From Clostridia bacterium (GTDB taxonomy: Bacteria; Bacillota; Clostridia; Lachnospirales; Lachnospiraceae), in NCBI GenBank assembly GCA_910574835.1, contig CAJTDE010000028.1:1-61521 (forward strand): DNA of 61,521 bases, in the 5' to 3' direction. The position numbers and the translations under genes were made by a program. Under the pieces are notes generated by a model. The model worked only from the letters and a program-made list of their open reading frames with translations, had not been told where the DNA came from and made no database searches. Numbering within the stretch: position 1 is the first letter of the stretch; every line of letters begins with the position of its first letter. Below, in pieces: positions 1-12,358 of the stretch.

Positions 1-32
1 AAAACATTACTATATTTCATGCATACAGCATA

Positions 33-73
33 AAGTGCCACCGTCCCAGTATTTATAAGGGATTGTGGCACTT
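33..73 (-). terminator. Hairpin downstream of the endolysin gene
   Basis: Inverted repeat AAGTGCCAC (33-41) / GTGGCACTT (65-73) with an inner TCCC/GGGA pairing, lying 3' of the last gene of the lysis/tail operon. There is no clear U-tract after it on the minus strand, so it may be a terminator or an RNA 3'-end structure. The rest of positions 1-184 shows no gene. Confidence 0.45.
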
Positions 74-184
74 ACTTGATTCTTAAAGTGTCAAAAACGA
101 GATTTTAACACAAATAGTTAAACTTTCATAGTCTGTTGCAGGGTTATATTTTTTAGAATGTTATATTCATAGAAATATCTGATG

Positions 185-1078
185 TTAATTGTTCTTTAAA
201 ATGTACGTTGTTATGGGGCCGACAATTCCATCTGCTGCTATGCCGAAATATGTCTGCGCTGCTTTTAAGGCCGCATTTGTATCCTTTCCAAAAAAACCGT
301 CGATATTACTTTTTCCTCTGCTGTTTTTATATGTAAGAAATCCCAGGCGGATTAAATGATATTGAACCCATTTTACATCATCTCCATACACTTGAGGTGT
401 TTTAAGCCGTATTATTTTTTTGGGAACCGGATAAGGATTTTCTTCCACATCAGTAATACTTTTTCCTAATTCGCCGTACCATAAGTTTATATCCACATTT
501 CCGCCGATCCCATTTATTCGTCCCTTGGAGGTATATTGCCATCCCTCCAATGTCTGCCTAAGCACAGGTCTCTTATTTGACGGCGGATTTGCTGACATGT
601 CCATTATGCTTCCGGATGGATACCTTGCAATCCAAAAGCTGTTGGATATCTGATTTTCATAAGGTTTCAAATTTCTGTTATAAAATGACAGTCCTGTGTA
701 TACACCAAATTCCAACCCGGCAGGTTTGAGTTCTTTTTGGTATGAGTTTATGATTTCCAATAAAGTGACTCCAAGTCCATCCTGACAAGTGTCCTCCAGA
801 TCAAGCCAAACCTTTATTTTCCTTTTTCCCAAAACTTCGATTACTTTCCGTGCATCTGTTCTTGCTTTTGCTGCGGTTGTTGCATAAGAATAATTATATA
901 CTCCTATAATTGGAAGAGCTGCCTTTACACAGCCTGCCCAGTAATTCTCAAACTGCCTGTCCGGAGTAAGATCTTTGCGTATCACTTTCAAAATCACGCC
1001 GTGTATTCCTGAGGCTTTTACTTTTCTCCAATCAATATCTCCCTGATATGAGGATACGTCAATTACTTTTTTGTTCAA
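185..1078 (-). CDS. GH25 endolysin (lysozyme) with C-terminal peptidoglycan-binding domain
   Basis: Muramidase of glycoside hydrolase family 25, which cleaves the MurNAc-GlcNAc bond of peptidoglycan to release particles at lysis. The catalytic domain spans about residues 4-210: it opens with VIDVSSYQGDIDW (Asp7) and has the acidic strand motif WLDLED (Asp93, Glu95). Residues 225-297 form a PG_binding_1-type repeat (VYGDDVKWVQYHLIRLGF, DGFFGKDT). No signal peptide is seen, as expected for a holin-dependent lysin. The start is a TTG that overlaps the holin stop, with GGGGG 8 nt upstream, so translation is probably coupled. It is the last gene of the tail/lysis operon. Family assignment is firm; the bond specificity is from family knowledge. 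Confidence 0.93.
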   Translation of the reverse strand: MNKKVIDVSSYQGDIDWRKVKASGIHGVILKVIRKDLTPDRQFENYWAGCVKAALPIIGVYNYSYATTAAKARTDARKVIEVLGKRKIKVWLDLEDTCQDGLGVTLLEIINSYQKELKPAGLEFGVYTGLSFYNRNLKPYENQISNSFWIARYPSGSIMDMSANPPSNKRPVLRQTLEGWQYTSKGRINGIGGNVDINLWYGELGKSITDVEENPYPVPKKIIRLKTPQVYGDDVKWVQYHLIRLGFLTYKNSRGKSNIDGFFGKDTNAALKAAQTYFGIAADGIVGPITTYILKNN

Positions 1079-1533
1079 ATGCGATTCCCCCTGTCTGCTT
1101 CTGCCTTGTCTGATTTTTCTTGTAATATTTCCAAGGCTGTCCTTAATATGCTTGGCATTGGCCCTCCCATGATTCCATAGTTTTCTACAATAGAAATTCC
1201 TTCATTTACAATAAAGGCAATAATAACTGCTGTTTTAATGTAATTTACCTGCAATGTCACATCTAAGCGATATGCAACCATGATTACTAATAAGGAACAG
1301 CCTTTTCTGCATAAGCCCTTCCATGCGGATATGCTGTTAAGGGCTCCGCTTTCGGATTTTTCGCTTTGCTGCCAAATGGCCGCAATCATTAGCCCCATTG
1401 CAAAATCAATTCCCATAAAAATAAGTAAAGTTGCCAAATCTTCTGTCCAGCCTCCTAATAGTCCATTGATGATAAAACTGCCTCCTGTTCCGCAAGTGGC
1501 TAAAATAATCATTTTTAATTTATTCCAGTTCAT
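1075..1533 (-). CDS. Phage holin, toxin-secretion/lysis family 4
   Basis: Small membrane protein of the Phage_holin_4 type, which permeabilises the membrane so the adjacent endolysin reaches the wall. It has 152 aa with hydrophobic segments near residues 7-28, 32-53, 80-92 and 100-115. The motifs LGGWTEDLATLLIFMGIDF and AWKGLCRKG are typical of the family, and a charged tail (EKSDKAEADRGNRI) follows. Its stop overlaps the endolysin start, giving the usual holin-lysin pair. An AGGAG-type site precedes the ATG. Confidence 0.9.
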   Translation of the reverse strand: MNWNKLKMIILATCGTGGSFIINGLLGGWTEDLATLLIFMGIDFAMGLMIAAIWQQSEKSESGALNSISAWKGLCRKGCSLLVIMVAYRLDVTLQVNYIKTAVIIAFIVNEGISIVENYGIMGGPMPSILRTALEILQEKSDKAEADRGNRI

Positions 1534-1557
1534 TTATTTTCTCCTTTTTTAATTAAA

Positions 1558-1575
1558 AGAGCATTTCTGTGCTCT
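1558..1575 (-). other. Intergenic hairpin upstream of the holin gene
   Basis: AGAGCA-tttctg-TGCTCT is a perfect 6-bp stem in the gap between the inverted fibre segment and holin. It is one of several short hairpins that separate the non-overlapping genes of this operon (others at 5830, 8535, 9768, 10272 and 10941). Confidence 0.5.
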
Positions 1576-1622
1576 ATGTTTGTAATAGTAATTTGTTTTT
1601 GCATTTTTGCTATAGCCTTTTG

Positions 1623-1641
1623 AGCCCTAAGTGTGAAATTG
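1623..1641 (+). repeat. Putative inversion crossover site, left copy
   Basis: The + strand reads GAGcccTAAGTGTGAAaTTG. The - strand at 2306-2325 reads GAGaggTAAGTGTGAAtTTG. The ten-base core TAAGTGTGAA (1628-1637 here) is identical, and both copies lie in the same reading phase (AGT GTG AAN TTG) of two tail-fibre C-termini on opposite strands. It is inferred to be the left recombination site of an invertible segment. Confidence 0.6.
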
Positions 1642-1980
1642 CATCCGGTTGGGAGTATTTATATATCAGTTGATGCCACAAACCCAGCTTTGCTATTTGG
1701 TGGGACTTGGCAGCAGATAACCGGACGCTTTTTGCTTGCGGCTGGTGGGGGATATTCGGCTGGGACTACAGGAGGTGAGGCTGCTCACAAACTTACAATG
1801 GCAGAAATGCCTTCGCATAGTCATTCTTATGGTGCAAAATATGGAGGCGGCGTTAATTCAAGTACCAGTGGTGTTCATTTCTGTTATACTAACCAAAATA
1901 CAGGCACTTCTGGTGGCGATAGTCCACATAATAACATGCCACCATATTTGACAGTATATATGTGGAAACGTACGGCCTAA
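1624..1980 (+). pseudogene. Silent alternative tail-fibre C-terminus (orphan, opposite strand)
   Basis: The open frame has no credible start: GTG 1633 is the first start codon, no ribosome site precedes it, and an in-frame TGA lies at 1621-1623 just left of the repeat. It encodes a classic collar/fibre tip: HPVGSIYISVDATNPALLFG, GTWQQITGRFLLAAGGG, a His-rich SHSHS stretch and the terminal NMPPYLTVYMWKRTA. Every other tail gene is on the minus strand, and this one converges on the fibre gene with 1 nt between the stops. If the segment between the two TAAGTGTGAA repeats inverts, this frame fuses exactly in phase to the fibre N-terminus, giving a product of about 210 aa. It is best read as a stored alternative receptor-binding tip rather than a decayed gene. 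Confidence 0.75.
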
Positions 1981-1981
1981 A

Positions 1982-2599
1982 TTATAAAAACTTAAAATTT
2001 GAGAAAGTTATTGTTGGTGCAGATGCGTGCCATGATGTTGTAGAAGAACTATCACTACTTTTAGGGTATGCATCAGCCTTTTGCGATGATGTAACTTTAA
2101 AAGTCCCTGTACCATTTTTATATGTGTATATACCAACAGTTGTTGCTGTTCCCCATATTAAACTTAGATTATTCGCCTGGTATAATTTTGAGCTTGTTGT
2201 TACAGTGACCTGGAAATCCCGTTTAAAAGGGAGCGCTGAATCTGCACCTGCTGAATTAACAAAATGGATTTTTCCGTCGCTGCCCACATATACCCGCACT
2301 TTATTCAAATTCACACTTACCTCTCGTAACGCATCCCCCGTCAGCTTCGCATCCGCCGCAAACCCAGCCTCCTCCGCCGCAAGCGGATCAACCACATCTC
2401 CCGAATCAAACTTCCTGTTTATCTCCCTATGAATCGCATTAACCTCCGCCTGTCCAAATTCACTTCCTATCTGCTCATACTCCGTCACATCGACAAAGGA
2501 CACTGTCCCATCCTCATTAGTAATCATCTGATAACGCCGTCTTCCCTCCATAGATTCGGCAAGAATATCATCCTTAAAATTTGTTAATAATTCTGACAT
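1982..2599 (-). CDS. Tail fibre / receptor-binding protein with switchable C-terminus (expressed form)
   Basis: About 205 aa from ATG 2599 (SD AAAGGAG 10 nt upstream; ATG 2605 is an alternative with short spacing). The N-terminal ~95 residues (MSELLTNFKDDILAESMEGR ... DSGDVVDPLAAEEAGFAADAKLTGDALREV) form the constant part. After the SVNLN crossover the tail (VRVYVGSDGKIHFVNSAGADSAL ... TITFSNFKFL) is rich in beta-type and Ser/Thr residues. It lies between the distal tail genes and holin, the usual place for a host-range protein. The unexpressed tip on the other strand starts with the same ten bases in the same phase, so this gene probably exists in two forms. No homologous domain was recognised in the present tip. 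Confidence 0.75.
   Translation of the reverse strand: MSELLTNFKDDILAESMEGRRRYQMITNEDGTVSFVDVTEYEQIGSEFGQAEVNAIHREINRKFDSGDVVDPLAAEEAGFAADAKLTGDALREVSVNLNKVRVYVGSDGKIHFVNSAGADSALPFKRDFQVTVTTSSKLYQANNLSLIWGTATTVGIYTYKNGTGTFKVTSSQKADAYPKSSDSSSTTSWHASAPTITFSNFKFL
2306..2325 (-). repeat. Putative inversion crossover site, right copy
   Basis: The minus-strand core TAAGTGTGAA (2319-2310) lies inside the fibre gene at codons for V-S-V-N. It is an inverted copy of the sequence at 1628-1637, with matching flanks (GAG three bases 5', TTG one base 3'). The interval between cores is about 0.67 kb. Confidence 0.6.
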
Positions 2600-2721
2600 T
2601 AGCATTTCGCTCCTTTCTTTCATCCGCCCGTCTTTTTCAGGCAAAAAATATACCTTACGGTACTTCTTCAATTTACTTCTCTTCCTTATCACAGAAAAAC
2701 ACTCTCTAAGACGCCATCACT

Positions 2722-3150
2722 TTATCCGATAGCCAAATCCATCCTTCCCCCAAGATGCTTCCTGTTTCCCAGACGAAATGACAGCCTGGGTTTATTTTCC
2801 TTCTGTTCTTTCAGCAATGTATAGATTCTCAAAGCCGCTGATTCTATCCGGTTCAAATCCTCATACCCGATAAACGCCTGATTCTGCACATACACCGTCT
2901 TTTCCCCGATTGTCACCGGATAAATATTGGAATGTATCTGCTCCAGATTATCCGACAGCATATTGATTTCATCCGCATAATAAAAGCTTGAATAATCTTT
3001 ATCCGCCCCCATATCCCCGATCTCAAACGGATGATAAAGCGCCTCGGCCATCTCATGAAGAAACAGCAAATTATTCTTGATTCGGTTGTAATGCGGCGCA
3101 TCAAACCTGTCATCAGCGGTCCAATCTGTTTTTGGCTCTTGCCAGCTCAT
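2722..3150 (-). CDS. Phage tail-associated structural protein, function unknown
   Basis: 142-aa soluble protein beginning MSWQEPKTDWTADDRFDAPHYNRI, with a helical centre and no signal or membrane segment. Start ATG 3150 has AGGTGG at good distance and overlaps the stop of the upstream 759-aa tail protein (ATGA), so it is translationally coupled to it. Its place between the baseplate-like protein and the fibre suggests a distal tail or fibre-attachment component. I recognise the sequence style from clostridial phage tail modules but cannot name a function. Confidence 0.65.
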   Translation of the reverse strand: MSWQEPKTDWTADDRFDAPHYNRIKNNLLFLHEMAEALYHPFEIGDMGADKDYSSFYYADEINMLSDNLEQIHSNIYPVTIGEKTVYVQNQAFIGYEDLNRIESAALRIYTLLKEQKENKPRLSFRLGNRKHLGGRMDLAIG

Positions 3151-5423
3151 GTACTCACCACCTTCCTAGCTTTCATTTTTCCACTCCATGCGCCGTTGTA
3201 TTTCAGCTCATTCTGACAGCAGCGAATCATAGCCCGCTCCCTGCTCCGAAGCTCCAGGAAAAATAAATCATTTGCATCCACTCTGGGGTCCCCCCGGTAA
3301 GACACATCATATTCAACAGGAGCCTGGTAATACTCCGCCAGCCATTCTTCCAGCTCTTCAGCCTGCCCCACCGTACTAATCAATTCATTTTTCCACTCCA
3401 CTTCTTCACCGGTCGTATTGTGCAAAACCGTATGGCGGCTCTCATTCGTCTGATACTCCTTCCCGTTCACCACCACCTGAACCATCTGTTCCGCCGTCAC
3501 ATGGTCAAAAAATAACTTCGCATAAAAATCCGAGCTTTCCGCAATCCTGATCTTAGTCCCGTCAGGAAGCGTATCTCCATATGTCACCTCTCCTCCTTCC
3601 CTTTCCATAGCAAATTCCGCAGAAAGTCCGTAGGAGGCTTTGTTAAAATACACAATCCTTTCATTATTTTGCGGAGAAATTACCATTTCTTCACTATAAA
3701 TCTGTCCCGGCTCTTTTGTACTCTCACTGTAAATCGTGCGCACCACCGATAAAGATTTGAGCTGCTCCTGCTTCCTTCCCTTTGGCGTTGCCGTCAAGTC
3801 CCGATCATATTCCAAAAAATAATCCGTAACATCACCGAACTCCATCTTATCCAAAACCACCCGCGAATCGGGATATCCCTTTGTAAATTCAATCTCCATC
3901 CTGTCAAAATCTTCAAAGCTCTGATTCAAAATACATTCCGCCTCTTTGTTCCCTGTCACCTCAAATGCACATATAAGCTTTTCATCATTGTATGTACGAA
4001 TGATAAAATCTTCCGGTGCGGCCGAACAAAAACAAAAGCCCAATCCATAGCAGGTAAAAGCGCTTTCCATGACAATCGTGATAATCGGATTCTCCCGGAA
4101 CTCTCCGTTTTCATCACACACGGCGTCACTGATATAACCCGTATCATTCAAAATCTCATCCCTGTCTCTGGGCAGAAATATCATGGAACCGTCTGTTTTG
4201 GCAAAATCCCGGAATGCTATCGCATAAGTTGTCCTGCCTCCGTTTTTCAGCACATTTTCCACATGACTGTGAACGGCCTGCATATCCGCACTGGCTTCCA
4301 TATCCGGCAGAAAGGACGATTTTATTTGGATTTTTTTATTCCTGCTTTGGAACAGCACGCACCGGCAGGCATTTGACAGCATCTGCAATGCCTGGACATG
4401 GGAAACTGCCGGCATGGGATTGTAAATCAGAATATCTCTCAGATACGGGTCAACGGAGTACTCATTTTCCTGCAGCCCCATATCTTCCAGAATATCCAGC
4501 GCCAATGCATAGGCCGTCATGCCCTCCTTACGGTATTTTCCTCTATAATAGACGCCCTTCATATTATCAAAAGGGTCCGTAGCCGTGAATTTTGCCTGCT
4601 TGTCATCCGCATCCCAGGATTTCAGATAAACCTCATTGCTTCCAAGCCATTCAATATCCCCCTTTCCGGTGACATCGTATCCAAAGGACACATGGATTTC
4701 CTGTCCAAGCTCCATAAAGTGAATAGCGCTCTCCGGATTGTCGATATTGTACCGGAGAGAATAATTGTACACGGTCAAGGACATATCCTGGCTCGGTATG
4801 CAATCTGAAATGGGAGAAACGCTGTCCTTAAAGGAATAGCTTTTTACATCCTTATTGGTAAATACATTTCCCACGCCGCACAGGAATTTATAAATCCTCA
4901 GCCGCCCCTGCCCGTTTACCATAGACAGAGGTATTATTTTTAAAAACGAAACGCCTGTAAATACATCCTCCGTACTCCATAAAGCCGACGTATTTCCTGC
5001 ATATTCCCGGACGCCCGAATCGCTTTCAATGATAAATGCCGTCGGATAGGCTTCTCCGAAATCTATGGTCAGCCCCTTGATATCCAGATCTGTCATTCCA
5101 AAGCGTATCTCAATGCTTCCCAGCAGGCTTTCCGTCACAAGACCATTGTTCATAACAACTTCTCGGATATCTCTCGGAAGAAATACCATACTGCCGTCCG
5201 TTTTTGCAAAGCCCTGCTCCGCCGTAGCATAAATACTGTCTATTTCATAATTATTAAACGGCTTTGCAGGACTTGAATACCCGGTAAAGCTATTCTCCGG
5301 TATCTCCGTATAAGCTGTTTTCTGTGCGTCCTGATTGATTACGCCTATGGAAATATGAATATAAGCCCTGTTTCGGAGAGGGCGCTTCATTGCCTCCTTA
5401 TACGCTTTACTTACTTTCTGCAT
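3147..5423 (-). CDS. Large distal tail / baseplate-like protein with internal duplication
   Basis: 759 aa, starting at ATG 5423 in a TAATG overlap with the upstream gene. A short segment is repeated: FAKTDGSMVFLPRDIREVV near residue 72 and FAKTDGSMIFLPRDRDEIL near residue 405. Each is followed by a similar beta-rich stretch (SLLGSIEIRFG... and ENPIITIVMES...), so two related carbohydrate-binding-like or Dit-like modules are likely. The middle (residues about 215-330, GQEIHVSFGYD, DADDKQAKFTATDPFD) resembles tail proteins of the tail-associated-lysin/hub position. It sits after the tape measure and a 125-aa protein, where siphophages place Dit and Tal. No lytic catalytic motif was recognised. 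Confidence 0.7.
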   Translation of the reverse strand: MQKVSKAYKEAMKRPLRNRAYIHISIGVINQDAQKTAYTEIPENSFTGYSSPAKPFNNYEIDSIYATAEQGFAKTDGSMVFLPRDIREVVMNNGLVTESLLGSIEIRFGMTDLDIKGLTIDFGEAYPTAFIIESDSGVREYAGNTSALWSTEDVFTGVSFLKIIPLSMVNGQGRLRIYKFLCGVGNVFTNKDVKSYSFKDSVSPISDCIPSQDMSLTVYNYSLRYNIDNPESAIHFMELGQEIHVSFGYDVTGKGDIEWLGSNEVYLKSWDADDKQAKFTATDPFDNMKGVYYRGKYRKEGMTAYALALDILEDMGLQENEYSVDPYLRDILIYNPMPAVSHVQALQMLSNACRCVLFQSRNKKIQIKSSFLPDMEASADMQAVHSHVENVLKNGGRTTYAIAFRDFAKTDGSMIFLPRDRDEILNDTGYISDAVCDENGEFRENPIITIVMESAFTCYGLGFCFCSAAPEDFIIRTYNDEKLICAFEVTGNKEAECILNQSFEDFDRMEIEFTKGYPDSRVVLDKMEFGDVTDYFLEYDRDLTATPKGRKQEQLKSLSVVRTIYSESTKEPGQIYSEEMVISPQNNERIVYFNKASYGLSAEFAMEREGGEVTYGDTLPDGTKIRIAESSDFYAKLFFDHVTAEQMVQVVVNGKEYQTNESRHTVLHNTTGEEVEWKNELISTVGQAEELEEWLAEYYQAPVEYDVSYRGDPRVDANDLFFLELRSRERAMIRCCQNELKYNGAWSGKMKARKVVST

Positions 5424-5800
5424 TATTCCCACCCACAATCTACCAGATTCAGTTGACAGTTACGATATTGCTTTATTTTTTTATCCCTGTCCAGCCAATA
5501 GGGTTCTCCGGATCTGCTGCCGGGATACATGGTAATGGTCCTTCGCTCTCTGGTCTGCGGATCTTCAAAGGTCACCGGTATAAAAAACGGTTCCAGCGCT
5601 TTCAGCATTCGCTCCCAGACCGCCGCATCCAGGCCCTCCCACTGCATACTGTCCAGTTTATACTGATTTCTTCCGATTACCTGCCCGACAACTGCCCCCA
5701 ATGCGTTTACACCGGAGTCCACATTGGTCAGTACTGTTATTTTAAATCCCCGCTTTGGTGTGGGGAAACGCACTCCATTGACTATCAGAAATGCTGACAT
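5423..5800 (-). CDS. Small distal tail protein next to the tape measure
   Basis: 125 aa beginning MSAFLIVNGVRFPTPKRGF. It contains an aromatic and charged centre (MLKALEPFFIPVTFEDPQ) followed by RRTITMYPGSRSGEPYWLDR, like small tail-tip proteins of clostridial siphophages (DUF6711-like by memory). GAGGTGA precedes ATG 5800, and the stop overlaps the next start (TAATG). Location directly after the tape measure supports a tail-tip role; a precise function cannot be given. Confidence 0.6.
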   Translation of the reverse strand: MSAFLIVNGVRFPTPKRGFKITVLTNVDSGVNALGAVVGQVIGRNQYKLDSMQWEGLDAAVWERMLKALEPFFIPVTFEDPQTRERRTITMYPGSRSGEPYWLDRDKKIKQYRNCQLNLVDCGWE

Positions 5801-5829
5801 CTGACATCACCTCTTTTCCATTGATAAAA

Positions 5830-5855
5830 GAGCACTTCCTTTTACGGAAATGCTC
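5830..5855 (-). other. RNA hairpin between tape measure and tail-tip gene
   Basis: In the transcribed (minus) strand the sequence forms GAGCAUUUCC-guaaaa-GGAAGUGCUC, a 10-bp stem with one U.G wobble. The wobble appears as a C.A mismatch on the plus strand, which argues for selection on the mRNA. There is no U-tract, so this is more likely a processing or stability element than a terminator. Confidence 0.55.
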
Positions 5856-5890
5856 CTTTGGTTGATATGTTTTCTAAATTTGCCGCCTGC

Positions 5891-8482
5891 TTATGCCGGC
5901 TGAAAGCTCAGACCCATTCTCCTTCTTGTCCTGTCTATTCCGTCAACCAGTGAACGGCCGTCCAGGGATATATCCGTGTCTTTTTCCAGAATAGCCCGAA
6001 GCAATGCGTTCTGTTCCCGCAAAAGGGTATTTTGTCCGCCTGCGTGAATCCCCTGCATAACGGCTCCGCGGATTGCTTCCACAATCTGATCGTTATTGGC
6101 AACCGCCGAGTGATTTCCAATGCGTCCTACCATCTCGTTCATTCCGTTTTCACGTGCCAGAAACAGCTCGCCGGTCTCCGGATAACCTCCGGATGCAAAG
6201 CCTCTGACCGTATGTGTACGGACGGATACACTTGCCATAGAGGATGCGGCCGCTTTTACGGAGCGAATCGCAGACATCATTGAGCTGCACATTCCCTGTA
6301 CACTGTTGTTCAAAGCAGATACCGCCGATTGTACTTCGGTACAGGCGGAACGGACCGCAGATACGAATTGACTCCATCTGGCCGTCCATCCGATGTTAAC
6401 AGCTGTCATTCCGGCCGTTACATTTGTATTTAACAAAATAAGATTTTGCATAATCGCCTGATTTATCTGCAGCCACATAAGACGTGTCTGGTTCAGCATC
6501 AGCGTCCACTTCTGCATCATCAGCATGGTAATCGCCGTTAAAATCAGCCCTATCTGCTGGTTCATCATTATGAGTGCATTTACCACGGACATGCTCAAAA
6601 GCTGTATGCTTTCCCCGGAAGCCAGCAGCATATTTTCAAAGCCCAGCCGGAACGTTTCCATAAATGCCAGGAGTGCGGCTTCGGCAATCAGGGCAAAGTT
6701 TTCCGGGCTTAGCTGCTCTCTGAAAATGTTCATCAGCGTCTGGGCAAATAAGCTTAGCTGCTCTATGATAATCTCAGAATCTGAAAACGGCTCAAGCAAG
6801 CCTAATATTGCATAGTCTCCTATCTCAGCCATAGCTTTGCTGGGGCTGTGAATATCCAAAGCATCCCGAAAGCCATCAACAAAGCCCGAACAGAAGTCCC
6901 CGATTCCCTTTTTTACATCCTCCCACATATCTTGAATCCCCTTCCAGAGTCCGGCAATAATATCCGACCCCAGCTTGAGAAACTTTTCGGGCAGAGCTTC
7001 AAAAAATTCTAATATTTTATCGGCAATTTCCGGCACCTTTTCCGTGACAAATTGAAGGATCTCTTCTTTCCATTCTCCCAGCTTCTCTATGACTAAAATA
7101 ATCGTATCATAGATTTTACCCGGAAGCTCGGAAAACCATGTCACGATATCTTCTATCAGCTTTCCAATCTGTTCCGCTAAATACTCGTTTAGCTCCATAA
7201 CCCACACGACAAAGCTGCCCAGGGTCTCTCCCAGCCAGTAACCAAGCTTTCCAGGAAGCTCAGATAAAAAGACGCCGATGCTCTCCACCAGTTCTCCGAA
7301 TTTCTCAGGGATGCTTTGGAAAAACGGCAGTGCGCTTCCGTTCCACCATTCCAGTAATTTTTCACTTATTAATGCCCATATTTCTTCAAAGCCTCCGAAG
7401 AGAGCTTCCTTTATTCCGCCGAGCACTTCAAGAAGCCCTTCTCCAATCAGAGAAAATCCTTCCATCATCTTTTCCGGATCAAGTGTAAGAATGCCTGTAA
7501 TAACTCCCACCAAACCGCTCGCTATGTCCATAAGTCCTTGTATCGTCTGCATCAGACCTACAATATCGCCGCACAGCAGTTCAATCATTCCCGCACCTAC
7601 TATTTCCGCTAGTATCACTGTGAATGTTGCCAGAGCTTCCACAATCCCTTTTAAACCGCTGGATTCATAAAAATCGTACAAAGCTGCTCCAAACCCTTTG
7701 ATACTTTCCCAGAGAGGTAATATTGCCCCCTGGATTTTCTCAAACGCACCCAGCAGAGTATCCTTAACTGTGGTAAAGGCCGAACAAACCGCATTTCTGA
7801 ATTGTTCGCTGGTATTCCACAGATCAACGATAACAAGTACGGCAGCAACGATTGCTGCCACTATCGTCGCCGCCGCTCCTGCACTGATGCCAAATGCCAC
7901 TGAAAATGATTCGCCGATGCTCCCTGCCCCTATGGAAACATAAGAGATAAACTCCCCTATATGTGCTGTCAACGGGCTTATTAAGTTTTTCACCAGGTCT
8001 GTCACTATCCCCACGGTTTCTGTGCCGAACAGCGATTCAAGAGCCTTTTTCATCTCTTCTAAGCTGCCCTTAAAATCAGTAAATCTTGTTACAATATCTC
8101 CGATACCGTTCAGCGCCGCGAATCCGGCCTCCAATCCGCCAAATGCCTCCGTCAGCGAGGCAACATTTCCCGATACGTTCGCGGAATCCGTTAAAGCAGA
8201 CGACAGTTCACCAATACCTGCAAAATTCATACTGGAAAGTCTTTGAACACTGTCTGCAAAATGAGCCAATCCAGAAGTGTCAATATTCCCCAGTATCTGC
8301 ATGGTCTGTCCCATTTTTTCAACACTGTTTGTAAATCCCTCCAAGCCTTTTTGATTTATCTCAGAAATGGAAGCAGATATCTTTTCCAATTTATTCGCCA
8401 ATTTGCTCAGTTCCGCATTTGCTTTTGCCGCCGATATGTCTATCTGCGCTTTTATATGCTTCACATCTGCTGCCACAAACAT
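5891..8482 (-). CDS. Phage tail tape measure protein
   Basis: 863 aa from ATG 8482 (AAAGGAG 7 nt upstream). Residues 1-110 are an alternating Ala/Leu coiled coil (KLANKLEKISASISEINQKG). Hydrophobic stretches (ISAGAAATIVAAIVAAVLVIVDLW and the segments around 280-360) follow. Helical repeats with regularly spaced Trp are next (EEIWALISEKLLEWWNGS, LPGKLGYWLGETLG, LPGKIYDTIILVIEKLGEW). The motif SPSKAMAEIGDYAILGL is a hallmark of tape measure proteins in Firmicutes phages. It sets tail length and is expelled during membrane penetration. It lies downstream of the assembly chaperones, as in other siphovirus tails. The length predicts a tail of roughly 130 nm by the usual 1.5 A per residue, which is an inference. 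Confidence 0.92.
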   Translation of the reverse strand: MFVAADVKHIKAQIDISAAKANAELSKLANKLEKISASISEINQKGLEGFTNSVEKMGQTMQILGNIDTSGLAHFADSVQRLSSMNFAGIGELSSALTDSANVSGNVASLTEAFGGLEAGFAALNGIGDIVTRFTDFKGSLEEMKKALESLFGTETVGIVTDLVKNLISPLTAHIGEFISYVSIGAGSIGESFSVAFGISAGAAATIVAAIVAAVLVIVDLWNTSEQFRNAVCSAFTTVKDTLLGAFEKIQGAILPLWESIKGFGAALYDFYESSGLKGIVEALATFTVILAEIVGAGMIELLCGDIVGLMQTIQGLMDIASGLVGVITGILTLDPEKMMEGFSLIGEGLLEVLGGIKEALFGGFEEIWALISEKLLEWWNGSALPFFQSIPEKFGELVESIGVFLSELPGKLGYWLGETLGSFVVWVMELNEYLAEQIGKLIEDIVTWFSELPGKIYDTIILVIEKLGEWKEEILQFVTEKVPEIADKILEFFEALPEKFLKLGSDIIAGLWKGIQDMWEDVKKGIGDFCSGFVDGFRDALDIHSPSKAMAEIGDYAILGLLEPFSDSEIIIEQLSLFAQTLMNIFREQLSPENFALIAEAALLAFMETFRLGFENMLLASGESIQLLSMSVVNALIMMNQQIGLILTAITMLMMQKWTLMLNQTRLMWLQINQAIMQNLILLNTNVTAGMTAVNIGWTARWSQFVSAVRSACTEVQSAVSALNNSVQGMCSSMMSAIRSVKAAASSMASVSVRTHTVRGFASGGYPETGELFLARENGMNEMVGRIGNHSAVANNDQIVEAIRGAVMQGIHAGGQNTLLREQNALLRAILEKDTDISLDGRSLVDGIDRTRRRMGLSFQPA

Positions 8483-8534
8483 CACTCTCCTTTCGTCTCT
8501 GCACTGACGTTCGGAGACGTTCGGGCATAAGAAA

Positions 8535-8559
8535 AACACCTGCCGATATGGCAAGTGTT
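8535..8559 (-). other. RNA hairpin between zinc-ribbon gene and tape measure
   Basis: Minus-strand RNA folds as AACACUUGCC-auauc-GGCAGGUGUU: a 10-bp stem with a single U.G wobble. The architecture is almost the same as the hairpin at 5830-5855 although the sequence differs. It lies just 3' of the zinc-ribbon gene stop. Confidence 0.55.
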
Positions 8560-8569
8560 TTATCATTCA

Positions 8570-8973: not shown

Positions 8974-9398
8974 TTATCTTTCCTCAAACCTTTTGTTAAA
9001 TTCCAATGCCCAGAGCCGGAACTTTTCTTCCCCTGACATGGGTTCTTCCTTCGGTTCCATAGACAGGGGTCTGTTGGGGTATTTCCCTCTTTTGGAAAAA
9101 CAGGACGCGATTGCCATCCGGACATATAAGCCCTGATAGTAAGCCGCCGCATCGAGCATCCGGACCTGTTCCTCCTTTTCCCGCAGATATTCTTCCTGAT
9201 ACATATACATGTATTTTGGATTCAATTCCCAGAATACGTCCATCGAGATGCCAAACCGGATTGCCGCCGGCATCCAGACCTTGTCAATCAGACTTGAAAA
9301 GGTTACCGGCTCTCTTCCTCCGCTTTTGCCGGTTCCGTTTCTGCCGTCGTCTCCTTCGCTTCCTTGTTCTCCTGCCCTTCCAGATGCAGGAGCTTCTT
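8974..9398 (-). CDS. Tail assembly chaperone, T-like part (read by -1 frameshift)
   Basis: Downstream frame of the G/GT-type chaperone pair. The frame is open without a stop from 8974 back to the slippery site at 9399-9405. The first ATG (9273) has no ribosome site and lies inside the conserved stretch TFSSLIDKVWMPAAIRFG, so independent initiation is unlikely. The region ISMDVFWELNPKYMYMYQEEY is typical of the T-like helical domain that binds the tape measure. The fused GT protein would have about 231 aa, starting at ATG 9668. Both products act as chaperones that load tail tube subunits around the tape measure and do not enter the particle. That role follows from phage lambda G/GT; the shift here is inferred from sequence. 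Confidence 0.72.
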
Positions 9399-9668
9399 GA
9401 AAAAACTGCTTTCCTGTACTGCCTTTGCATATGCCTTGTAAATATCCTCAAGCTTCCCGCCGCCCAATATATGCTGCTCCACCAGATGATCCGCCTGCTC
9501 CGGCTCACACTTGGCTACAATCGCCGTAAATGCCGACACTGCTGAAAATAGATAGTTCCTGCTCATCATTCCTTCTACCGGCAGTCCCATCTGCTCCATC
9601 AGCCGGGAGTGACGAAATGTCAGTTCCGGGACCTCATAGCTCTTCTGATTGATTTTTACCATTGTCAT
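9303..9668 (-). CDS. Tail assembly chaperone, G-like protein
   Basis: 121 aa from ATG 9668 (AGGAGG 9 nt upstream, MTMVKINQKSYEVPELTFRH). The compact helical domain (RLMEQMGLPVEGMMSRNYLFSAVSAFTAIVAKC) is followed by an acidic low-complexity tail rich in Glu, Lys, Thr and Ala. Position between the tail tube gene and the tape measure, plus the -1 slippery heptamer T TTT TTC at codons Phe-Phe (9405-9399), identify it as the upstream half of a G/GT pair. The stop lies at 9303, so unshifted ribosomes make this short form. Confidence 0.75.
   Translation of the reverse strand: MTMVKINQKSYEVPELTFRHSRLMEQMGLPVEGMMSRNYLFSAVSAFTAIVAKCEPEQADHLVEQHILGGGKLEDIYKAYAKAVQESSFFKKLLHLEGQENKEAKETTAETEPAKAEEESR
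9399..9405 (-). other. -1 ribosomal frameshift slippery heptamer
   Basis: Minus strand T TTT TTC in exact zero-frame register (TTT 9404-9402, TTC 9401-9399). tRNA-Phe in both P and A sites can re-pair after a -1 slip. The -1 frame is then open through 9304 and on to 8974. A second run, GCA AAA near 9323, is a poorer candidate because the GCA codon cannot re-pair. Confidence 0.68.
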
Positions 9669-9767
9669 TTTTATAAACCTCCTGCTTTTGCTTTTCTTTT
9701 TTCCTCTAAAAATGTCTAAAAGGGGTCCGTGATTCGGATGTCCGAATTGTTTTTTCATGGATTGGAA

Positions 9768-9785
9768 GGCGGCATAAAAGCCGCC
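9768..9785 (-). other. GC-rich hairpin after the tail tube gene
   Basis: GGCGGC-ataaaa-GCCGCC, a perfect 6-bp stem beginning 9 nt after the tail tube stop codon. It could protect the 3' end of the highly expressed tube mRNA or lower downstream expression; no U-tract follows. Confidence 0.5.
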
Positions 9786-9793
9786 TCCCCGCC

Positions 9794-10222
9794 TTATGCG
9801 GCTTCTACTCCTGTAATCTCGATCTTGGTAGAAGGCGATACGGAAATCGTCATCTGACGGATTCCATTTACTTCGCCCTCGCTTACGTACACCGCGTGCT
9901 GTCCGTCCCAGGCAGCCACTCCGTCTTTGCCGTCCTTGCCCATCTTCAGGCGGTAATGCAGCGCCTTCATGGACTTGGCCTTTACTGCCGTGTAAGCCTC
10001 CAGCGTATAATTCGCCGTAAACTCCATCGCCTCCATCGTCTGCACGCCAGGAACGAAGGTCTGTACTTCATCCTCCAGATCCGTTGTCTCCAGCTGCTCC
10101 GGGGCGCCGCCCAACGCCGGGTAGGTTTTGATCTTGCACAGCTTTTCCCAATCTGTTCCGTTCTCGCTTACCTCCAGGATTGTACCAATTGTACTTACTG
10201 CCTTTGTTGCTGCTTCTGTCAT
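9794..10222 (-). CDS. Major tail tube protein
   Basis: 142 aa from ATG 10222 (AGAGAGG 9 nt upstream; an in-frame ATG at 10252 lacks a site). It starts MTEAATKAVSTIGTILEVSENGTDWEKLCKIKTYPALGG, the N-terminal pattern of Firmicutes phage tail tube proteins, and continues with LETTDLEDEVQTFVPG and MEAMEFTANYTLEAY. It should form the hexameric rings of a non-contractile tail. No separate sheath gene is present, so the tail is of siphovirus (F) type. It is flanked by the probable tail terminator and the assembly chaperones, in the standard order. Confidence 0.85.
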   Translation of the reverse strand: MTEAATKAVSTIGTILEVSENGTDWEKLCKIKTYPALGGAPEQLETTDLEDEVQTFVPGVQTMEAMEFTANYTLEAYTAVKAKSMKALHYRLKMGKDGKDGVAAWDGQHAVYVSEGEVNGIRQMTISVSPSTKIEITGVEAA

Positions 10223-10271
10223 AATTTTTTTCCTCTCTTTCTTCGCACGCATTTTTCTGCGTATAAAAATA

Positions 10272-11018: not shown

Positions 11019-11480
11019 TTAGTATTGTGAATGGTGTGCAACATCACACTTTTTTATAATTTTATCAATTTTCCTGGAAATGGTGCTTCGATCATAGCCC
11101 AGCTCCTGGCCGATCTGCTCGTCCGTGAAGCAGTCTACATATTTTAAACGCAGGACTGTCTGCTCGCCCATTGTAAGAACCTCCGTATTTTCCAGAAACA
11201 GTTCGATATCCAGCTTCATGTCCTCAAATACCCGTTCATTGCGCTTCAAATCCGTCACCAGCCGGTTTACCGCATTCTCCCGTTCCTCCTTTGATTTGGA
11301 ACTGACTCCCGAAACAACAAAATGACATTCCGTATAAGGGAAGCGATTCATGGAGCCTTTTACAATTCCATGCTCTGTTGTAAGGGGGTGTGTCTCAAAA
11401 TAACGCAGCCGTCGCCTGATTGATTTGATTCGGCTTTCCAGATAGATATAATTTGCAAAAAAATCTCTTGTAATCTTCAT
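11019..11480 (-). CDS. ArpU/sigma-70 region 4-like late transcriptional regulator
   Basis: 153 aa from ATG 11480 (GGGAGG 7 nt upstream; the upstream ATGs lack sites). The N-terminus is helical and basic (KITRDFFANYIYLESRIKSIRRRLRYFETHP). The C-terminus holds a sigma region 4-type helix-turn-helix: LTMGEQTVLRLKYVDCFTDEQIGQELGYDRSTISRKIDKIIKKC. Proteins of this class switch on late (structural and lysis) genes in Firmicutes phages. Its promoter is overlapped by several operator palindromes of the divergent repressor, so it is the likely first gene induced when the repressor is lost. It heads the operon directly followed by tail genes. Confidence 0.75.
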   Translation of the reverse strand: MKITRDFFANYIYLESRIKSIRRRLRYFETHPLTTEHGIVKGSMNRFPYTECHFVVSGVSSKSKEERENAVNRLVTDLKRNERVFEDMKLDIELFLENTEVLTMGEQTVLRLKYVDCFTDEQIGQELGYDRSTISRKIDKIIKKCDVAHHSQY

Positions 11481-11552
11481 CTTATTTCCTCCCTGTTTCA
11501 TTTCCGCAATATTCCTTTGCTGAATTTTCTTTTGTGTAGATTTGCTCATTTT

Positions 11553-11755: not shown

Positions 11756-12148
11756 ATGGGAAGCTTTCAAAATATTTTTAAAGAACTTCGAATAGCCAGC
11801 GGCATGACTCAAACAGAAACTGCAGAGAAATTAGGCATCTCCCGAAGCACCATAGGAATGTACGAAACAGGCGCCCGAGAACCGGATTTTGAAACGCTGG
11901 AGAAAATTGCTGATTTCTTTCATGTGAATATGGACTATTTGCTGGGCAGAACAAACGGTTCTCCCGCCAACGGGGAGGCGCGGTATTATCTGAATGATGA
12001 TGCCCGGGATATGGCACAGTTCCTGTTCGAAAACCCGGAATACAAGGTCCTTTTCGATGCTTCCCGCAAGGTGAAGAAGGAAGACATTGACTTTGTAAAA
12101 CAAATGATTGATCGTGTAAGGGGGAATCCAGATGACACCGGATGTTAA
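11756..12148 (+). CDS. CI-like XRE-family repressor
   Basis: 130 aa with an N-terminal HTH_3 domain (residues 5-62: FKELRIASGMTQTETAEKLGISRSTIGMYETGAREPDFETLEKIADFFHVNMDYLLGR). A C-terminal oligomerisation region (residues 75-120, ARDMAQFLFENPEYKVLFDASRKVKKEDIDFVKQMIDR) follows. It lacks the Ser-Lys autoprotease domain of LexA/CI. The next gene encodes an ImmA-like HExxH protein, so inactivation by proteolysis as in ICEBs1 ImmR/ImmA is plausible. Four GTCAC-N5-GTGAC sites in the divergent promoter region are its probable operators. AAGGAGGG precedes ATG 11756. Confidence 0.88.
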   Translation: MGSFQNIFKELRIASGMTQTETAEKLGISRSTIGMYETGAREPDFETLEKIADFFHVNMDYLLGRTNGSPANGEARYYLNDDARDMAQFLFENPEYKVLFDASRKVKKEDIDFVKQMIDRVRGNPDDTGC

Positions 12149-12356: not shown

Positions 12357-12358
12357 AA

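Follow-up and report, generated by a model that had tools for sequence, protein, structure and literature searches.

A proposed invertible segment in the fiber gene

The window, the whole 61,521-nucleotide stretch analyzed here, is contig C28 of a 5.0-Mb genome assembled in 133 contigs, and a phage-tail gene cluster occupies its first ~12 kb. In the tail-fiber gene of this cluster, two alternative C-terminal tips lie on opposite strands between short inverted repeats, and inversion of the intervening DNA would exchange one tip for the other. An earlier reading made from the letters of this DNA (the sequence-only reading) had proposed such an invertible fiber tip in a tail-only, tailocin-like cluster. 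This remains the best-supported interpretation, owing to a second copy of the cassette in a prophage of the same genome and to related loci elsewhere. Each site consists of an outer arm followed by a 10-bp core, and the segment is laid out as follows.

1628..2319: predicted invertible segment, 692 bp from core to core, bounded by inverted cores; a 690/692 copy with the same ends lies in the prophage on contig C18
1621..1637, plus strand: left site, outer arm TGAGCCC and core TAAGTGTGAA; core at 1628-1637, in-frame stop TGA at 1621-1623
2310..2326, minus strand: right site, within the fiber gene, outer arm CGAGAGG and core TAAGTGTGAA; core at 2310-2319
1627..1980, plus strand: silent tip B of the Gp10_C type (Pfam PF21939, E 1.5e-20; PHROG tail protein families), 117 codons and a stop
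1982..2320, minus strand: expressed tip A, 112 codons and a stop, without a match to any Pfam or PHROG family
2321..2599, minus strand: constant fiber N-terminus, 93 codons when started at the ATG at 2599; starts as far out as 2692 are also possible

The fiber open reading frame (ORF) stops at 1982 on the minus strand and the orphan tip at 1980 on the plus strand, leaving 1 nt between the convergent stops. This gap, the core positions and the common codon phase are as the sequence-only reading had described them. Read in the coding phase NTA-AGT-GTG-AAN, the core opens into both tips (112 and 117 codons), and the other phases close after 0-14 codons; the first listed start of tip B is a GTG inside the core. 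Counted from the ATG at 2599, the fiber now has 93+112 = 205 codons and would have 93+117 = 210 with the other tip, in agreement with the predicted lengths of 205 and ~210 aa. The flanks match in part, again as proposed, and both outer arms fit the motif YRAGNSS. The in-frame stop that the sequence-only reading placed just outside the left repeat is the TGA of the outer arm, which cuts off the silent tip.

A second copy of the cassette in a resident prophage

Contig C18 of the same genome carries four of the 13 genomic copies of TAAGTGTGAA inside 3 kb, in a prophage. Pfam matches to terminase gpA, a lambda-family portal, a Clp-type protease, capsid E, tail tube FII, baseplate J and Tail_P2_I, together with a tail sheath (PHROGs, E 2.4e-63), indicate that this prophage is a complete contractile-tailed phage. 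The window cassette is present between two of the C18 sites, identical at 690 of 692 positions, and the two differences, one C/T and one G/A, are both synonymous. Identity ends at the cores: the linker side diverges at once, and the holin side keeps a short similar arm. The fiber linker also occurs in the C18 fiber (83% over 98 bp), and the C18 cassette does not adjoin it. The window flanks adjoining the cassette are 96-98% identical to those of G009, the nearest relative, which belongs to another species and carries a different cassette. Because the cassettes are only 0.3% apart between unlike tail machines, set against flanks of 96-98% identity to G009, the comparison points to recent cassette exchange between the window cluster and the C18 prophage.

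The C18 array comprises four tips in one phase (32, 129, 112 and 117 codons), one of which carries an H-type lectin domain. Between outward-facing sites lies an ORF for a tyrosine recombinase; it is 346 aa long, or 333 aa counted from the conserved Met, and has Phage_integrase (PF00589) and SAM-like domains and a match to NCBIfam XerA_Arch above cut-off. It contains the motifs MRVGEL, GKGSKER, HPHRYR, LGHE and MIYC, which we take to be the catalytic set. The prophage array therefore has the Xer-like tyrosine recombinase of a Rin-type shufflon, the closest published system (discussed below). A recombinase gene at the locus itself, as in Rin, is found in the prophage arrays and not in the window: a family profile search of C28 returned no PF00239 or PF00589 match. 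The sequence-only reading had looked to a serine or tyrosine invertase left of the window; no invertase is on C28, and the candidate that emerged is the tyrosine recombinase of the prophage on another contig.

Site anatomy and the recombinase family

Sites of the first core group share the consensus YRAGNSS followed by TAARTGYRAA. Allowing at most two mismatches, and with a motif derived from the same loci on which the sites were counted, we found 36 sites in 12 loci and none in 69 kb of other sequence of the same genome; the counts omit site 5278 of L033, which is too divergent for this limit. At least 60 codons are open in the coding phase at 31 of the 36, compared with 2/72 for the other phases. 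As in Rin-type loci, a short asymmetric repeat stands in the constant gene and before each variable tip, in the same phase. Among the 26 silent sites, 17 have an in-frame TAA or TGA as their YRA triplet and the other nine have CAA; all 10 expressed sites have CAA or CGA. The two classes are partly circular, as a stop two codons ahead of the core forces the silent class. By this pattern, one outer-arm base can separate a translation-blocking site from a read-through site.

The last six core bases are uniform in nine of 11 loci (35 sites; L051, with one site only, is left out), a count that none of 100,000 shuffles reached (best 6), descent of sites within a locus being ignored. Partner sites of a tyrosine recombinase must match in the exchange region, and because of this the six bases, TGYRAA, are likely to be that region.

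Relatives of the C18 recombinase at E<=1e-40 occur in seven of the 16 genomes of the genus, its own included (five at 69-100% identity, two near 40%), and at E<=1e-80 in 15 of 397 genomes sampled from the family. Stretches selected by pattern match yielded 14 relatives among 208 from genome contigs and six among 53 from viral contigs; Lachnoclostridium sp. An138, Bacterium 1XD21-13, Clostridia bacterium isolates A66_58 and C2, and an uncultured Merdimonas are among the carriers. The recombinase sits between outward-facing sites in nine of 11 distinct full-length arrays with enzymes at least 68% identical (L009, L032, L033, L054, L055, L056, L059, L067 and L068), a count that leaves out arrays with enzymes at most 50% identical or cut by contig ends; in L058 and L066, outward sites on both sides of the recombinase were not seen. 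Cores vary between arrays, with TAAGTGTGAA, TAAATGCAAA and TAAGTGCGAA represented, and TCACAAAATTCTAAGA in L067 and L068, whose enzymes are at 71 and 68% identity. In viral contigs, the tip-B protein has relatives at 30 loci (35-59% identity) and the tip-B end has no match; none of the 19 viral stretches compared with the tip-A protein holds a relative.

Some arrays have peculiarities of their own. Isolate C2 carries three arrays (L054, L055 and L056) with three recombinases of the C18 family in one genome, and G028 likewise has three. At 8464-9466 of L039 (G008:C6), a recombinase fragment (84% over 112 residues) is followed by site-like sequence with only nine open codons, apparently a decayed array. 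Several tail-tip ORFs that adjoin the array in L033 start beside tracts of at least eight G (or C), near 6020-6030, 6470-6481, 6834-6845 and a C-run near 7195, where slipped-strand phase variation on top of inversion is possible.

Inversion between related arrays and the layout of sister clusters

Two related arrays differ by an inverted tip. One of them, L067, is on a viral contig and has the same sequence as the An138 locus L057; the other, L068, is on a viral contig from a metagenome. Their 40 bases before the fiber site are identical. A 431-nt tip (seven mismatches) follows the fiber site in L067 and lies inverted behind another site in L068. At this distal site of L068 the upstream 40 bases match at only five positions, and the break falls at the core. 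The evidence is comparative and comes from a related array whose core is not that of the window; it suggests that tips have been inverted in nature with the break at the core. As a separate observation, the similarity of the remaining tips of L067 and L068 is limited to about 72-82% over a few hundred bases, so that tips seem to undergo replacement as well as inversion.

Relatives of a 763-aa protein encoded next to the fiber were found in six of the 16 genus genomes (G009, 99%; G004, 81%; G015, 77%; G001 and G013, 44%). The clusters of G009, G004 and G015 all have two inverted sites after the fiber N-terminus, and with the window the two-site layout is present in four clusters. A holin is seen past the sites in G004 and G009, and the G015 contig stops 146 bases after the second core. 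Cores are equal within a cluster and different between clusters: TGTGAA in the window and G004, TGCGAA in G009 and TGCAAA in G015. The expressed tip is of type A in the window and G015 (30% identical) and of Gp10_C type in G004; in G009 it is short, and a separate ORF comes after it. In the tip-A comparison the relative at 30% identity is in L079. All four clusters hold a silent Gp10_C tip, and G004 expresses one as well, so the type of junction that the sequence-only reading predicted exists in nature. That reading had also suggested looking for the opposite arrangement in other genomes; the same cassette in inverted form was not found among them, and what turned up were the L067/L068 inversion and the other tip type expressed in G004. 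The stretches fetched around the three sister clusters contain no recombinase of the C18 clade.

The tail cluster

The minus-strand genes run, from right to left, from a sigma-region-4-like ORF through the major tail protein, tape measure, 763-aa protein, fiber and holin to the endolysin, and a divergent Cro/C1-type regulator stands at the right edge.

185..1078, minus strand: endolysin (PHROG endolysin, E 3e-36)
1075..1533, minus strand: holin (PHROG holin, E 6.6e-18)
3147..5438, minus strand: 763-aa protein conserved in sister clusters (relatives 99, 81 and 77%; PHROG of unknown function, E 2e-116), a putative tail-tip protein judging by its position
5891..8566, minus strand: tape measure protein (PHROG, E 3.6e-43)
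9794..10252, minus strand: major tail protein (PHROG, E 2.8e-13)
11019-11549, minus strand: sigma-70-region-4-like ORF, below the Pfam cut-off, regulator
11756-12148, plus strand: Cro/C1-type helix-turn-helix ORF, regulator

No head, packaging or sheath gene was found in the cluster when 10 ORFs were compared with PHROGs, 10 with Pfam, and all other ORFs that start at 11 kb or beyond and reach 150 aa were read by eye. Tail, fiber and lysis genes without head or sheath are the content of an F-type tailocin, and judged from its genes alone, window 1-12.2 kb is predicted to be a headless, non-contractile (siphovirus-type) tail cluster of F-type tailocin-like character. Reading of the ORFs places host genes beyond it, including a ribosomal protein run. 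The cluster is collinear with those of G004 and G015 into the same host genes, and similarity to G009 stops at window position 12357. C28 ends just left of the lysin, so the locus is cut there by the left contig end.

Proposed mechanism and alternatives

We propose, with a probability of about 0.78, that the fiber of the tail cluster is switched in a Rin-like manner by a recombinase acting in trans from a prophage, and that this enzyme also trades cassettes between prophage and cluster. After binding the outer arms, an Xer-family tyrosine recombinase would carry out strand exchange inside the core, probably among the last six bases. As a result, 692 bp would be flipped and the constant N-terminus would continue into either tip A or tip B, the latter of Gp10_C type; the in-frame stop of the outer arm would keep the silent tip unread. 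The enzyme would be supplied in trans, with the C18 prophage recombinase, whose own four-tip array has the same core and cassette, as its likely source; action in trans is supported by the identity of prophage and tailocin cores in this genome. Whole cassettes would occasionally be exchanged at the cores between prophage and tail cluster, and switching may be episodic, depending on the resident prophage. By analogy with fiber biology, tip choice would change which bacteria are killed, and a resident virus may be re-aiming its host's weapon. The wider picture is more tentative, and we rate it somewhat below even odds: a domesticated tail weapon would have a recombinase-less specificity switch run by prophages, a shufflon enzyme would both flip and swap tips, a contractile phage and a non-contractile weapon would share one tip pool, and the resident prophage would decide switching.

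Several observations weigh against this proposal. Taken alone, the 10-bp match is no better than chance. TAAGTGTGAA has 13 genomic copies compared with 10 for a reversed-pattern control, and window 1-6000 holds nine exact inverted 10-mer pairs 300-1500 bp apart, a number reached or exceeded in 35 of 200 mononucleotide shuffles (mean 5.7); on these two comparisons we rejected any significance of the 10-mer by itself. No inverted molecule of the window locus was seen in the comparison of assembled sequences. With 133 contigs and 4.6% estimated contamination, the assembly allows that C28 and C18 could be from different strains. Prophage and tailocin cores differ in G004, though recognition may depend on the arms instead of the core. 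An enzyme of the C18 clade is absent from G009, G015 has only a 32% relative (its genome is 83% complete), and the L067/L068 inversion involves another core than that of the window, with enzymes at 71% and 68% identity.

The sequence-only reading had allowed that the ten-base match might prove common by chance; this holds for the 10-mer, and the overall case for a switch stands because of the second cassette copy and the relatives. The two tail-fiber loci that share the cassette hold six of the 13 genomic copies, and the remaining seven have no arm motif and a coding phase open for 11-43 codons.

Among the alternatives, the one that survives best, which we nevertheless consider unlikely, is a frozen relic: a past prophage recombinase would have delivered or last flipped the cassette, which no longer inverts since the cluster has no recombinase of its own. 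The lack of a recombinase family match on C28 and the persistence of the layout in G009 without an enzyme of the clade fit this account, but both tips are intact, the two cores are identical, the genome now carries a recombinase whose array has the same core, and cassettes only 2/692 bases apart argue that exchange was recent.

Slightly less probable still is that homologous recombination between the two elements, not site-specific exchange, brought the cassette. Similar linkers would provide the homology, at 83% over 98 bp, and such exchange of tailocin fiber loci is reported in Pectobacterium in the available text of PMC13195805. The prophage cassette, however, is not beside the linker, and linker-side identity stops at the core. 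A mixed route, with inversion first and homologous exchange afterwards, may also have operated.

A little lower again we place another enzyme of the genome, a tyrosine or large serine recombinase, as the one that flips the cassette. Candidates abound, with 35 PF00589 and 34 PF00239 matches in the genome, yet only the C18 enzyme sits in an array with this core, and the sole other relative at E<=1e-40 adjoins hsdM/hsdS genes. A serine invertase at the locus (a Gin/Cin/Ein/Min-type switch) was rejected, as none of the 34 PF00239 matches is on C28. Nor does the variation show the adenine-position substitutions of a diversity-generating retroelement: whole tips differ, and between the two cassette copies there are a single C/T and a single G/A difference; reverse transcriptase genes were not searched for. 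A chance repeat beside a stray gene fragment is highly improbable, for exact inverted 10-mers are common at such spacing but a second copy has the same ends (which we take as already excluding chance), sister clusters conserve the layout and the phase restriction holds across loci.

Relation to known systems

Comparisons with published systems draw on the available portions of the cited papers. Rin shufflons are described in prophages of Bifidobacterium (PMC6109161) and Eggerthella lenta (PMC8778435), with short, asymmetric repeats of 11 and 8 bp in these sources. Likened by features and not by sequence comparison, Rin and the arrays described here have in common an Xer-like tyrosine recombinase, short asymmetric repeats, a constant N-terminus with dissimilar C-terminal tips, and inversions between relatives. 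Unlike in Rin, the enzyme of the prophage arrays lies between outward-facing sites, cores vary between arrays and silent arms often carry a stop; the window locus differs further in being a tail-only cluster without an enzyme. Bifidobacterium tRNA-Met prophages have two short inverted repeats with no recombinase alongside, and an invertase acting in trans was suggested by the authors (PMC6109161). The available text names no source enzyme or shared cassette for that locus, whereas here both were found in another element. In Clostridioides difficile, one tyrosine recombinase, RecV, serves several switches (PMC5903667). Those described in that portion are flagellar and cwpV switches, not tail fibers.

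Ein is a serine-type enzyme and the carotovoricin tail is contractile; the system proposed here differs in having a tyrosine enzyme, a non-contractile tail and an enzyme encoded elsewhere. In carotovoricin, the fiber C-terminus is changed by DNA inversion via Ein, whose gene lies in the tailocin cluster (PMC13195805).

Searches of the open-licence PMC literature gave no earlier description of an F-type tailocin switched by a tyrosine recombinase, or of a prophage and a tailocin that draw on a common enzyme and cassette pool; the available text of an inverton survey (PMC11892184) has no match for phage or tail. Fiber inversion itself is known in phages and tailocins; here the switch, the enzyme and the source of cassettes appear to be divided between two genetic elements of the same genome. 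Should this hold, the specificity of the tailocin would hinge on its resident prophages, and the transfer of tips between unlike tail machines would have a precise, testable mechanism, cutting at a 6-10 bp core, instead of being put down to vague mosaicism. The composite YRAGNSS-TAARTGYRAA also provides a searchable site family in Lachnospiraceae.

Invertible hsdS loci offer a further comparison, in which the target is restriction specificity. In the same genome as the window, L038 (C25:60000-70271) contains, at 3498-6460 and 8990-9985, hsdM and hsdS (Pfam) and a second hsdS-like ORF on the other strand (recognized by eye, with no Pfam hit). A transposase is present as well, along with a tyrosine recombinase that shares 41% identity with the fiber-array enzyme, and L038 may be an invertible type I restriction locus.
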